Shown in pieces: positions 6,242 through 31,378 of a DNA stretch of 37,602 bases (position 1 is its first letter; the number at the start of each line of letters is the position of its first letter). The notes under the pieces are model-generated. The model did not search any database. It was not told the DNA's origin and was given only the letters and a program-made list of their open reading frames with translations. The stretch comes from a virus: positions 1-37,602 of the IMG/VR virus record IMGVR_UViG_3300048930_000206; one strand, given 5' to 3'. The position numbers and the translations under genes were made by a program.

Positions 6242-6733
6242 ATGGCACAACAAATTATTGGCATCGGCTCAAGTGCGAATGACGGGACGGGCGATCCGCT
6301 CCGGACGGCCTTTGACAAGATCAATGACAATTTCACGGAGCTTTATGCGGCCATTGCCGCGCTTGAGGCGATGCCGGACGTTTCCACGGGGGCCTATGCT
6401 CCAACCGTCTCAAACACCTCAAACCTTGATAGCAATCCGACAATTTCGGGCGGCCGTTATATTCGCATCGGCAATGACGTGTGGGTAGCCTTCACCTTCA
6501 ATGCGGATGCCACGGCGAGCGGCGACACTATGTTTCAGCTCTCCTTGCCGGTGGCCTCCAATCTTGCAGCCACCTCCGATCTCTCCGGCAATGCCGTGGC
6601 CTATATCAGCGGTGCGATCAGTGGCGGAGCGATCATTGGAGACACCGCAAATGATACGGCGCAAGTTCGCATCAATGCGGGAAGCACCTCCGCTCGCGAC
6701 TACACCGCATTTTTCCGCTACGTGGTGCAATAA
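6242..6733 (+). CDS. Short tail fibre-like protein
   Basis: 163 aa if the second of two adjacent ATGs is used (6242; six bases after GGAG). The ATG at 6239 would add one residue. The N-terminus IGIGSSANDGTGDPLRTAFDKINDNFTELY is a module widely seen at the start of phage tail fibre or virion appendage proteins. The remainder is Gly/Ser/Thr-rich beta structure (PTVSNTSNLDSNPTISGGRYIRIGNDVWVAFTF), consistent with a small trimeric knob. Its stop codon is inside the 8-bp target site of the downstream insertion element, but the protein is not altered. Confidence 0.65.
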   Translation: MAQQIIGIGSSANDGTGDPLRTAFDKINDNFTELYAAIAALEAMPDVSTGAYAPTVSNTSNLDSNPTISGGRYIRIGNDVWVAFTFNADATASGDTMFQLSLPVASNLAATSDLSGNAVAYISGAISGGAIIGDTANDTAQVRINAGSTSARDYTAFFRYVVQ

Positions 6734-19094: not shown

Positions 19095-19279
19095 GGCGCT
19101 TTCCCGTCAATGAAAGCCATAAAGTGGATTGCGGCTCATGCTACGGCATGGGCTGTATTTCATGCTCCGGCCGGGGATGGCATGAGACAGATGAGGGCCG
19201 GGAGGAGCGCGAGCAAGCGGAGGATGATCGCGCGGATGCGGAGCTTGAGGAGCGCGCGCTCCGGAGGTTTGAGGAGTGA
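19091..19279 (+). CDS. Small zinc-ribbon-like protein
   Basis: 62 aa (MRRFPVNESHKVDCGSCYGMGCISCSGRGWHETDEG...). The spacing CGSCYGMGCISCSGRG matches a DnaJ-type CxxCxGxG zinc module (two CxxC pairs), followed by an acidic/arginine-rich helix. It overlaps its neighbours by ATGA and GTGA. It may bind nucleic acid or a protein partner. One of several small Cys-rich proteins of this phage. Confidence 0.72.
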   Translation: MRRFPVNESHKVDCGSCYGMGCISCSGRGWHETDEGREEREQAEDDRADAELEERALRRFEE

Positions 19280-19806
19280 GGCGCTTCCTCGCCTTGGATC
19301 AATCGCTCTCATCCACCGGCTTTGCCGTGTGGGATGAGGGCGATGCCCTGCCGCGCTCCGGCTCTTGGCCTCTATGCGATGGGATCAAGAGCCGCCCGCT
19401 CGCTTTCGTGGGCATCCATCAACAGATTGGCGCGATCCACCGCGAGCGAGCGATCTCCGCCATCGCCTATGAGCAACCGATCAAGACGCCATCGGACAAG
19501 GTGGAGAAGCTCATCGGGCTCTATGGCCTCGCGGCCCATATCGAGAGCATCGCGCACGTGAAGCTCATCCCGTTTGAGGTGATCTCCGCGCGGAGCTGGC
19601 GCTCAACCTTCATCGGCAAGGAGGCCCATGGCGTGGGCGCGGATCGCGTGAAGCGCATGGCCGTGGAGCGGTGCCGCCACTTTGGGATGGACCCGCTCAC
19701 CCACGATGAAGCGGAGGCCATCGGCATCCTTGATCACTATCTCCACACCCTCAAGATCGTGCCGCCTTGGCGAGAGGCCCATCCATTCTTGCTGCCTTGC
19801 GCTTGA
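19276..19806 (+). CDS. RuvC-like Holliday junction resolvase
   Basis: 176 aa from a GTG start overlapping the previous stop (GGAGG about nine bases upstream). The RNase H-like acid set is visible: Asp8 in FLALDQSLSSTGFAVWD, Glu66 in SAIAYEQP, and His143-Asp144-Glu145 plus Asp153 in THDEAEAIGILDHYLH. Length fits RuvC (about 170-180 aa). It would cut branched DNA made by the recombination and replication genes and debranch DNA before packaging. It is followed by a hairpin at 19842. Confidence 0.88.
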   Translation: MRRFLALDQSLSSTGFAVWDEGDALPRSGSWPLCDGIKSRPLAFVGIHQQIGAIHRERAISAIAYEQPIKTPSDKVEKLIGLYGLAAHIESIAHVKLIPFEVISARSWRSTFIGKEAHGVGADRVKRMAVERCRHFGMDPLTHDEAEAIGILDHYLHTLKIVPPWREAHPFLLPCA

Positions 19807-20288: not shown

Positions 20289-20549
20289 ATGAAAGCCTTT
20301 ACCGGCACCAATCCCGATGTGCAACTCTACAACATCGGGCAACCCACTCCAGAAGATGCTTCAACGGAGATTGCCACCCTCCATTGGGCGGTGCGCGCCA
20401 TGAAGCCGACGCACCCGGCTTTTCCGCTTATGGTGGGCGTGCTCCGCCATGCCGTTGAATTTGGATATTGCACAAATTATCAGCTCGGATCGGCTGGACG
20501 CGTAGTTCGGCGGCTCCGCGCGGAGATGGCGGCGGAGTTTGGCGAATGA
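20289..20549 (+). CDS. Hypothetical protein upstream of replication initiator
   Basis: 86 aa from ATG 20289 (AGGGAGG eight bases upstream). The sequence is MKAFTGTNPDVQLYNIGQPTPEDASTEIATLHWAVRAMKPTHPAFPLMVGVLRHAVEFGYCTNYQLGSAGRVVRRLRAEMAAEFGE. It is helical and overlaps the initiator start by ATGA, so it is probably co-translated with it. No family recognised. Confidence 0.7.
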   Translation: MKAFTGTNPDVQLYNIGQPTPEDASTEIATLHWAVRAMKPTHPAFPLMVGVLRHAVEFGYCTNYQLGSAGRVVRRLRAEMAAEFGE

Positions 20550-21292
20550 GTTGGAAGGCGCTCGCATGGGCATCTGATCAAAAATGCGAGAAGGCGGCGG
20601 ATAAGCTGATCTTGCTGGCCCTCGCGGAGCGCCACAATACGGAGAGCCGCGTGGCCTACCCATCCACGGCGTGGCTTGTCGAGTTCTCCAGCCTTGACCG
20701 CAAAACCGTGCTGAAATCACTGGAGCGCCTCCAAGAGCAAGGGCTCATCATCGACAGTAGTATTCGCATGGGATCAACCGGAGGCGTTAAGGCGTGGCGG
20801 CTGGCCTATGACGGGGAAGCGGTCCCAAAAACGGGACAGCTCAAGCGGTCCCAAAATTCCCATGAAGCGGTCCCGTTTTTCCCGGAAGCGGTCCCAAAAA
20901 CGGGACAACTAAGCGGTCCCAAAAACGGGATACGGAACCGGGATATAAGAACCGGGATGAACCGGGATATAACCGGGGACGCGCGCGAGCAGAAAAAACG
21001 CTCCGCCCTGCCCAAGAATTTCAAGCCGGAGCTGACGGGTAAGGCCGCAGAAATTGCCGCAGGCTGGCACTCATCACGATTGGCGCATGAGTTGGATGCC
21101 TTCCGAAACTATCACCTCGCCAAAGGCTCGCTCATGGCTGACTGGCAAGCGGCGTTCCGGACATGGATCGGCAACGCGGAAAAGTGGAGTAAGTCGAATG
21201 GGAACGGAAATCGCGACAATCGCGGATCGGGAAATGGCCTCCTTGATGCCACTCTTGATGAAATGCGAGAGCGAGGCCAGTTTGTCCGATGA
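20546..21292 (+). CDS. Replication initiator (lambda O-like, winged-helix N-terminus)
   Basis: 248 aa from ATG 20546. The N-terminus (about 1-90) is a winged helix of the HTH_36/replication type: KADKLILLALAERHN, then YPSTAWLVEFSSLDRKTVLKSLERLQEQGLI. Residues about 91-145 are low-complexity (EAVPKTGQL twice, NRDI-type repeats) because they are encoded by a DNA repeat array (20817-20978). The C-terminal part (about 150-248, ALPKNFKPELTGKAAEIAAGWHSSRLAHELDAFRNYHLAKGS) resembles the C-terminal domain of phage initiators that contact the helicase loader. The layout of initiator with internal iterons followed by a loader gene matches lambda O/P. Confidence 0.82.
   Translation: MSWKALAWASDQKCEKAADKLILLALAERHNTESRVAYPSTAWLVEFSSLDRKTVLKSLERLQEQGLIIDSSIRMGSTGGVKAWRLAYDGEAVPKTGQLKRSQNSHEAVPFFPEAVPKTGQLSGPKNGIRNRDIRTGMNRDITGDAREQKKRSALPKNFKPELTGKAAEIAAGWHSSRLAHELDAFRNYHLAKGSLMADWQAAFRTWIGNAEKWSKSNGNGNRDNRGSGNGLLDATLDEMRERGQFVR
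20817..20978 (+). other. Putative replication origin: iterons inside initiator gene
   Basis: Five copies of AAGCGGTCCC begin at 20817, 20843, 20865, 20886 and 20911, spaced 21-26 bp (about two helical turns). Three continue as AAAAACGGGA(C), making each an inverted repeat GTCCC-N6-GGGAC. The third copy continues as GTTTTTCCCGG. Downstream, AACCGGGAT occurs three times (20936, 20950, 20960), twice extended by ATAA, forming a more AT-rich stretch. An iteron array inside the initiator gene next to an AT-richer segment is the hallmark of lambda-type origins. Confidence 0.82.
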
Positions 21293-21965
21293 GCAATTTG
21301 CTCCCATTGCACGGTTTGCCGCCGCGCCACCTCCAGCTCTGCCCACCGCAACGGAGGAGGATGTGCGAAAGCTCATCGGCACCATGGCCGGAACGCTCAA
21401 GGCCGCTCGCACCTCCACCGATGAGGGAAGGCTCAAGCTCGCCGTTTACAAGCGGATGCTTGGGCACCTCCCGCTTGCGGCCCTCCAGCACGCCACACAT
21501 CGCGCCCTTGCCACCTTGGAGTGGATGCCCACTCCGGCGGAAATCCTCAAACTCGCGGAGGGCTATTGTGGGCCGGAGAGGCTCGCCTATTCGCGAGCTC
21601 AACGCCTCGCAAGGGATCGGAGGCAACGGCTATTTGATGAACGGTGCAAGGCGATCCGCTCACGCGCCATCCCGGCCGATGAGCTCCACACTCTCACGGA
21701 GCAGGAAATCCGCCATGGCCTCGCCCATCGCGCACTCCTCCGCGAGCTGGATGGCACTGTGATCCTTTGGACCCTTGAGGATGAAAAGCGCATCATCACG
21801 GAGCGAATGGCCCAATTGAGTTTGGAAGGGCCTCACGTCTCTCCCATGGATGAGCGGGACAAACGCGCGGAGGATGCTCCGGATCGTGTGAAATCGAGTG
21901 GATCGGTGGGCGATCTTGCCGCCGGGCTCATGGCAGGGATGGAGGTTGATGATGGCAAGGCGTGA
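21198..21965 (+). CDS. Probable helicase loader (lambda P-position protein)
   Basis: 255 aa from ATG 21198, inside the 3' end of the initiator gene; GGAG lies eight bases upstream. A conserved helical core is seen at about 50-125: TEEDVRKLIGTMAGTLKAARTSTDEGRLKLAVYKRMLGHLPLAALQHATHRALATLEWMPTPAEILKLAEGY. This matches phage proteins that follow the initiator and resemble lambda P or DnaT-like loaders. A charged helical stretch follows. There are no Walker motifs, so it is not a DnaC-type ATPase. It probably brings host DnaB to the origin. Confidence 0.65.
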   Translation: MGTEIATIADREMASLMPLLMKCESEASLSDEQFAPIARFAAAPPPALPTATEEDVRKLIGTMAGTLKAARTSTDEGRLKLAVYKRMLGHLPLAALQHATHRALATLEWMPTPAEILKLAEGYCGPERLAYSRAQRLARDRRQRLFDERCKAIRSRAIPADELHTLTEQEIRHGLAHRALLRELDGTVILWTLEDEKRIITERMAQLSLEGPHVSPMDERDKRAEDAPDRVKSSGSVGDLAAGLMAGMEVDDGKA

Positions 21966-30643: not shown

Positions 30644-31378
30644 ATGACCTATCCTTACACCCTTTCGCTCGCTGGCGTTCGCGCGCTCAAGCCCTGTGAT
30701 CCTGCAATGGAGCGCCTCGCGGACGTTCTGCCCAAGCGCGGCAAGATCGACGCGGCCAAAGCCCGCGCGCTCGGGTGCACCTATGATGATATTATCTGGA
30801 GCGCCTCCGTTATTGCGATGGATGATGAGAGCCTCGCCAAGCGGCTAACTGGCTATCTGAACGACAACGCAAAGCGCGTGCTCCACATTTTCGAGGAAGC
30901 GGCACCGAATGATGATCGGGTGCGCAAGTGCATTGAGGCCACTGATAATTGGCTTGCTGGTCTGATCACGGAGCAAGAATGGAAAGTGGCCGCGAGGGCC
31001 TCGTGGGACGCGAGGACCGCGTGGGCCGCGAGGGATGCGTGGGCCGCGAGGGATGCGTGGGCCGCGAGGGATGCGTGGGCCGCGAGGACCGCGTGGGCCG
31101 CGTGGGCCGCGAGGGATGCGTGGGCCGCGTGGGCCGCGAGGGATGCGTGGGCCGCGAGGACCGCGAGGGATGCGTGGGCCGCGAGGACCGCGAGGGATGC
31201 GTGGGCCGCGAGGGCCGCGAGGGCCGCGTGGGCCGCGAGGACCGCGAGGGATGCGTGGGCCGCGAGGGCCTCGTGGGACGCTGAATTTCATGCTTGGCAG
31301 TTTGATCGCCTTGTCTACTGGCTTTGTGAGGCGGCTATTCCGCGTGCGCGCGCAACCGCTATCCGGAGGTGCCGGTGA
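30644..31378 (+). CDS. Imm5-like protein with expanded Ala-Trp-Arg repeat
   Basis: 244 aa from ATG 30644 (GGGAGCTGACCCA upstream). The N-terminal ~105 residues (LKPCDPAMERLADVL ... GYLNDNAKRVLHIFEEAAPNDDRVRKCIEATDNWLAGLITEQEWKVAARA) match the layout of 'putative immunity protein' (Imm5-like) sequences. These typically run 'AxxVLPIFEKxxPxDxRPRxAIEAxxxWLxG' and then an alanine-rich helix. That helix is here a repeat of AARDAW and AART units (about residues 115-213), encoded by tandem DNA repeats. The C-terminus (EFHAWQFDRLVYWLCEAAIPRARA) resumes non-repeat sequence. Function is unknown. Toxin immunity or an anti-host role is only suggested by the family name. Confidence 0.7.
   Translation: MTYPYTLSLAGVRALKPCDPAMERLADVLPKRGKIDAAKARALGCTYDDIIWSASVIAMDDESLAKRLTGYLNDNAKRVLHIFEEAAPNDDRVRKCIEATDNWLAGLITEQEWKVAARASWDARTAWAARDAWAARDAWAARDAWAARTAWAAWAARDAWAAWAARDAWAARTARDAWAARTARDAWAARAARAAWAARTARDAWAARASWDAEFHAWQFDRLVYWLCEAAIPRARATAIRRCR
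30988..31281 (+). repeat. Tandem coding repeat bounded by 24-bp direct repeats
   Basis: Nine-base modules GCGAGGRYY and GCGTGGGCC are concatenated. The 18-mer GCGAGGGATGCGTGGGCC occurs eight times. Identical 24-bp direct repeats lie at 30988-31011 and 31258-31281, offset by exactly 270 bp (90 codons). Slippage or recombination would therefore stay in frame. Confidence 0.92.

Follow-up and report, generated by a model that had tools for sequence, protein, structure and literature searches.

Two types of short repeat lie within a putative replication initiator gene of the viral genome analysed here, raising the question of whether this stretch serves as an origin of replication and, if so, what each repeat contributes. 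The analysed stretch of DNA (the window), 37,602 bp long, corresponds to an entire IMG/VR virus record and includes genes for tape-measure, portal, terminase and major head proteins. A first-pass annotation had read the repeats as a lambda-type origin within the initiator gene. The comparisons reported here suggest that they probably do constitute a replication origin in the initiator's own gene, at which iteron-bound dimers would melt an adjoining array of GAACC units (Table 1).

Table 1. Positions of the replication-associated features in the window
Feature	Positions	Strand	Basis or description
Initiator gene	20546..21292	+	248 aa; HTH_36 and PHROG 1032 matches, structure model
Iteron unit 1, AAGCGGTCCC	20817..20826	+	exact-match search
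Iteron unit 2, AAGCGGTCCC	20843..20852	+	exact-match search
Iteron unit 3, AAGCGGTCCC	20865..20874	+	exact-match search
Iteron unit 4, AAGCGGTCCC	20886..20895	+	exact-match search
Iteron unit 5, AAGCGGTCCC	20911..20920	+	exact-match search
Perfect palindrome, GTCCCAAAAACGGGAC	20822..20837	.	palindrome search
Perfect palindrome, GTCCCAAAAACGGGAC	20891..20906	.	palindrome search
Last palindrome, GTCCCAAAAACGGGAT, one mismatch (ends GGGAT)	20916..20931	.	palindrome search
5-bp junction, core of last palindrome (TNCC-N6-GGNA) to first AACC	20931..20935	+	conserved gap in relatives
Phased GAACC-type array, proposed unwinding element on coding strand	20935..20978	+	AACC at 20936, 20950, 20960 and 20971
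Next gene, candidate partner of the initiator (helicase loader or other)	21198..21965	+	255 aa; gene order

The N-terminal domain of the initiator was matched by HTH_36 (PF13730; E 8.5e-9, 35.5 bits against a curated cut-off of 25), and residues 1-219 matched PHROG 1032, a family of replication initiation proteins (E 2.2e-27). A DnaT-type domain (PF17948) in residues 174-218 scored under its curated cut-off (E 0.003; 17.6 bits against 25), while Phage_rep_O (PF04492), the lambda O family, gave no match to the initiator up to an E value of 1. The structure model predicted a confident winged helix-turn-helix at approximately residues 1-90 and a helical C-terminal part at approximately residues 150-220. 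Residues 94-142 were modelled as unstructured, mostly below a pLDDT of 50, and the repeat units fall in this stretch, in agreement with the earlier description of a low-complexity linker. The winged-helix model resembled many unrelated winged helices (best Z of ~9), and a Foldseek search with the initiator model returned nothing at an E value of 0.001 or below. GC skew along the window displayed no clear switch at the repeat site. A gene for a RuvC-like Holliday junction resolvase (19276-19806; PHROG 159, E 3.7e-13) is located just upstream of the replication genes.

The five iteron units that had been reported at intervals of 21-26 bp were recovered as five exact copies of AAGCGGTCCC, spaced by 26, 22, 21 and 25 bp, and the rest of the window contained no further copy. 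Three of the units had also been described as extended to GTCCC-N6-GGGAC inverted repeats; two of these are perfect, and the third holds only with one mismatch. When one mismatch is allowed, 15 of 100 shuffles reach three such palindromes, so that their number is not rare in itself, and the distinctive feature is the set of five exact 10-mers rather than the palindrome count. The AAGCGGTCCC units occupy all three codon phases (1, 0, 1, 1 and 2, respectively), and none of 5000 synonymous-codon shuffles reached five copies (maximum three). Selection therefore acts on the DNA at this locus.

The second repeat type was likewise confirmed, with three exact AACCGGGAT units, a number that none of 100 shuffles reached, followed by a fourth AACC; the AACC run of the window reads GAACCGGGATATAAGAACCGGGATGAACCGGGATATAACC. 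Runs of at least three AACC units spaced by 9-15 bp occur only once in the whole window, namely at this array, and are absent from the minus strand. Within the initiator gene, duplex stability is lowest in the 50-bp stretches that start at 20921-20922.

With the full-length initiator as the query, only one relative was found in IMG/VR, and relatives were therefore gathered by tblastn searches with the HTH segment alone, together with searches of whole genomes. The tblastn search yielded 295 phage records, of which a spread was sampled, and profile searches covered 274 genomes (the class of a Thioalkalivibrio genome), 194 genomes (the phylum of an Opitutales genome) and three further collections of 398, 296 and 296 genomes. 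Removal of near-duplicates left 109 initiator-like genes, 35 in set 1 and 74 in set 2. Palindromes of the type TNCC-N6-GGNA (TNCC-N-WWWW-N-GGNA) were present in the own gene of 12 of the 14 initiators with the recognition helix [DNE][RKIVA]KT[VI] and in none of the 95 with other recognition helices (Fisher P 2.9e-14, treating genes as independent of shared ancestry). Both the motif and the helix class were defined on set 1, and the out-of-sample cases comprise L231, L243 and L249 (3/3). Other helices were paired with other palindromes, among them GTGCA-N5-TGCAC, GGACA-N3-TGTCC and TGACA-N3-TGTCA.

Scanning IMG/VR at the DNA level for two neighbouring iteron-type sites retrieved 18 loci, 14 of which lie in HTH-encoding ORFs as judged by a profile built partly from these same loci; Pfam HTH_36 independently matched 15 of the 16 proteins of alignment A3, six of them from iteron-scan loci. 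Among the remaining loci, L008 resembles a cut example, and L015, L016 and L017 do not represent genes of this kind. A control pattern with changed half-sites found two loci, neither in an HTH ORF. The same iteron pattern gave 13 loci in the cellular genome collection, one of them in an HTH ORF, and simple arithmetic predicts about 13 chance matches in its 257 billion bases. On the viral contig L017, iteron-type palindromes are present on both strands at 6517-6665, in a region devoid of an HTH ORF.

Runs of AACC were found to adjoin the iterons of relatives irrespective of the iteron sequence, as exemplified by GAACCAGTCATATAACCAGTCATATAACC in phiV10 and GAACCAGTCAAAGAACCAGTCAATGAATC in ST64B. 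An array was defined as at least three AACC spaced by 9-15 bp and located 3' of the HTH-encoding region. Set 1 is exploratory, as the idea of an array arose from reading relatives, and set 2, retrieved later, is confirmatory. Arrays were detected in 15 of the 35 set 1 genes, compared with 0/35 reverse strands, 0/202 further ORFs (150 aa or longer) from the same loci and 2.68 expected from synonymous-codon shuffles. Set 2, which includes weak HTH matches that lower its array rate, displayed arrays in 27 of 74 genes, as against 2/74 reverse strands, 1/259 other ORFs and a shuffle expectation of 3.46. The units of a single array occupied more than one codon phase in 13/15 (set 1) and 22/27 (set 2) cases. 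Divided by search group, set 2 arrays were observed in 20/41 genes from Pseudomonadota, 6/22 from Actinomycetota and 1/11 from Bacteroidota, phylum names that we presume from the titles of the centre genomes and general knowledge; an array was also identified in a Thermus phage and in an Opitutales (Verrucomicrobia) locus. Strong, full-length initiators carried a strict array in 39 of 80 cases, or in 45 of 80 when looser units were accepted. A strict array is thus lacking from about half of the HTH proteins sampled, which counts against the proposed origin mechanism. Unit spacing averaged 11.67 bp (sd 1.02; range 9-15 bp), and the consensus approximates GAACC(A/G)TCAAA, being weak past GAACC.

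A plain scan for four GAACC units was rejected as an array detector: in-frame EPxx repeats in proteins dominated its output of at least 120 loci, of which 80 were analysed (11 in HTH ORFs and 69 outside). The pattern GAACCNTCANNGAACCNTCAN{2,3}GAACC was adjusted to the consensus units obtained earlier, and its 11-bp step is out of register with the reading frame; it identified 76 loci in IMG/VR, with the array located within an HTH ORF in 67. All 67 arrays were on the coding strand, distributed over the three frames as 35, 19 and 13, and represented 46 non-redundant genes, and a control scan with the reversed string found six loci, none in an HTH ORF. Several of the nine non-HTH loci begin within ~250 bp of the end of the retrieved sequence and resemble cut initiators. 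This does not account for L324, L325 and L348, and the GAACC arrays of L325 (at 6826) and L348 (at 8121) are not contained in an ORF recognisable as an initiator.

The distance between iterons and array was nearly fixed. Among 14 RKT-class initiators found protein-first (window included), the junction measured 5 bp in 11 and 4 bp in two, with none in one; the corresponding numbers for 14 genes found DNA-first were eight, two and four. For all 42 arrays, whatever their iteron, a palindrome family was recognised in 26, while 16 gave no family. The gaps in these 26 were 4-5 bp in 12, 1, 3 or 6 bp in four and 9-78 bp in 10, measured from 5-bp half-sites and thus up to 1 bp shorter than those of the RKT-class test. 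The junction is less uniform with iterons other than those of the RKT class. The arrays were also easily opened, being 0.20 kcal/mol per step less stable than their own genes (median 97th percentile), and 37 of the 42 ranked at or above the 90th percentile of instability in the own gene. Relative to the gene mean (42 genes; positive values being more easily melted), stability amounted to +0.21, +0.16 and -0.10 kcal/mol per step at 0-20, 20-40 and 40-60 bp, respectively. AACC composition alone was rejected as the cause, as isolated AACC elsewhere gave only +0.01 kcal/mol per step.

The second repeat is the new part of the finding, a conserved, strand-oriented and phased GAACC element. The first-pass annotation had offered it as an unwinding region or a second binding site, a suggestion that gains support and proves general. 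The palindromic iterons vary with the recognition helix and the array does not. In the simplest account, dimers would read the palindromes and the array, lying against the last iteron, would act as the unwinding element and carry a strand-specific signal. Comparison of relatives renders a putative iteron-type origin inside the initiator gene well supported.

The next gene overlaps the end of the initiator gene by 95 bp, such that 21198-21292 encodes both the end of the initiator and the start of its putative partner. Its product had no Pfam or NCBIfam match, matched a PHROG of unknown function (PHROG 9804, E 5e-5) and yielded a poor structure model (pLDDT 55), too weak for a structure search. 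A blastp comparison with 284 ORFs near initiator ends gave a best E value of 0.1 (the DUF6475 gene of Bcep176), and the only close relative (46%) was found in L311. The survey of gene order drew on named phages with an initiator of this kind (23 retrieved, one of them unannotated, leaving 22); the gene after the initiator was named replication P in five (phiV10, Edno5, phi2, Y8A and RothD) and a DnaB-type or other helicase in four (MD-2021a, AB1, Lalka27b and ZF40). Gene order makes it plausible that the next gene of the window encodes a helicase loader or similar partner. At L311 1852-3178, the relative of the next gene again overlaps an initiator-like gene, which has a different N-terminal part, no Pfam match and no recognisable HTH_36 domain, an arrangement in which initiator swapping with a constant partner is possible.

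In the mechanism that we infer, winged-helix initiator dimers would bind the GTCCC-N6-GGGAC iterons, the recognition helix determining which palindrome is read. Bound copies would accumulate as far as the last iteron and open the phased GAACC array 5 bp beyond it, where the gene is predicted to melt most readily. With a unit every 11-12 bases, the coding strand of this array could then be kept single-stranded by the initiator or by a partner, which would allow the C-terminal part of the initiator and the product of the next gene to bring in a DnaB-type helicase.

The array might alternatively consist of duplex binding sites for the initiator or a partner, one per helical turn, with opening taking place elsewhere. 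Its mean spacing is near one helical turn, and each AACCGGGAT unit of the window also contains the iteron half-site CGGGAT, such that these units could be extra iteron half-sites, in the window phage alone. However, the array is constant while iterons and recognition helices change, and the recognition helix is therefore unlikely to read it; the breadth of the spacing range and the position of the array in the least stable stretch also argue against duplex sites, an explanation that we consider unlikely, albeit deserving of some weight.

Action of the repeats in RNA or as operators, e.g. in the termination of transcription, in translation or in the autoregulation of the initiator operon, would accord with the constant coding-strand orientation of the array and with a next gene that begins within the initiator gene, but it is improbable given that the iterons are palindromic and go with a DNA-reading helix, that the array adjoins the last iteron with an almost constant gap and that RNA would not need an unstable duplex. 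A recombination joint, kept for swapping initiator C-terminal and partner modules, would require neither phased repeats nor strand bias, low stability or a fixed iteron gap, and appears slightly more improbable again, even though the array does lie between the conserved N-terminal and variable C-terminal parts of the initiator and the relative of the next gene follows an initiator-like gene without recognisable HTH_36. It is scarcely credible that the repeats are a protein feature, arising from the chance recurrence of codons in a repetitive, disordered linker. The encoded linker is indeed modelled with low confidence and is probably disordered, and EPxx repeats in many other phage proteins yield in-frame GAACC repeats, yet most set 2 arrays combine different codon phases inside one gene, all three frames are used across phages and synonymous shuffles destroy the repeats.

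Melting of the GAACC array by iteron-bound initiator, the preferred reading, invites comparison with known origins. Lambda ori likewise lies within the initiator gene (gene O) with the partner gene directly downstream, contains inverted-repeat iterons (CCCTC-AAAAC-GAGGG, compared with GTCCC-AAAAAC-GGGAC in the window) and has its easily opened region on the 3' side of the iterons; as stated in a passage of PMC5043065, lambda O opens a neighbouring 40-bp A+T-rich region. The layout of the proposed lambda-type origin, with inverted-repeat iterons in the gene and an easily opened region adjoining, was therefore upheld, whereas the protein family was not, the window initiator belonging with HTH_36 rather than Phage_rep_O. 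Lambda O and P22 gp18 were without matches to the HTH profiles used, and a comparison set for PF04492 held one gene in 185 genomes, too few. Lambda further differs in an opening region that is A-rich and has no AACC run (longest run 1), and the distance between the half-sites is not the same. The annotated P22 origin is similarly inside gene 18, but its longest AACC run is 2, with no run of three. The system of the window accordingly appears like lambda ori in layout and working, with proteins and an opening signal that are not those of lambda. The last lambda iteron (L103) is followed by GGGGGACACAAAAGACAC, close to GGGACACAGAACC of the relatives studied here, and in the P22 origin (L312 4841-4985) GAATCAGTCAAA stands beside ACAAAAGACAATAT repeats; GGGGGACACAAAAGACAC and GAATCAGTCAAA are perhaps a degenerate form of the GAACC element.

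DnaA-trio elements beside DnaA boxes consist of 3-base units that are read by an AAA+ protein and guide single-strand engagement. They resemble the present array as short repeats beside duplex initiator sites, but their sequence is unrelated to GAACC. Plasmid winged-helix Rep proteins are described in PMC4081077 as binding one strand of the unwinding element, TrfA holding one DUE strand via repeated 13-mers, all four of which are needed. RK2 oriV and TrfA, as portrayed there, thus share with the window a winged-helix initiator, duplex iterons and strand-specific short repeats in the unwinding element; they differ in that the plasmid 13-mers have the consensus TAAACnTTnTTTT, whereas the window has intragenic GAACC units for which we infer single-strand binding. 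The closest counterparts are HTH_36 phages such as phiV10, AB1, Edno5 and Bcep176, whose initiators, annotated as primosomal protein or O-like, share the N-terminal domain of the window protein. They carry linker palindromes of their own, usually with a GAACC-like array 4-5 bp further on, but differ in iteron copies, C-terminal parts and next genes, and the examined stretches of these phages had no origin annotation. No description of a GAACC array in phage origins was found in the literature, which was covered mostly as titles and openings of abstracts, with subscription papers largely outside.

To our knowledge, few phage origins have been mapped. If the array is the unwinding signal, sequence would allow the origins of a large phage and prophage group to be located with base-pair precision, the target of an initiator could be guessed from its recognition helix, and a simple motif in many hosts would be available for how non-DnaA initiators open DNA. 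We would give an even chance to the broader proposal that HTH_36 initiators of phages and prophages in several bacterial phyla use one undescribed origin code, consisting of a swappable palindrome and a constant array captured single-stranded. The layout of this code, a GAACC(N)TCA-like coding-strand unit every 11-12 bases, beginning 4-5 bp past the palindrome, is put forward with equally balanced expectations. If such a code is true, initiators whose iterons are unrelated would share a single conserved single-strand signal, and sequence alone would suffice to locate the origin of a phage and to predict its iteron in part. The seemingly low-complexity linkers of these initiators, of the SPKNGT, VPKTG and SQKRD types, would be explained as the shadow of DNA sites. 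Elsewhere in the window, a 27-bp unit (GGCCGCGAGGGCCGCGAGGGATGCGTG) is repeated in tandem about eleven times at positions 30988-31281, within an ORF (30644-31378) that has no PHROG match and sits between the portal and major head genes.
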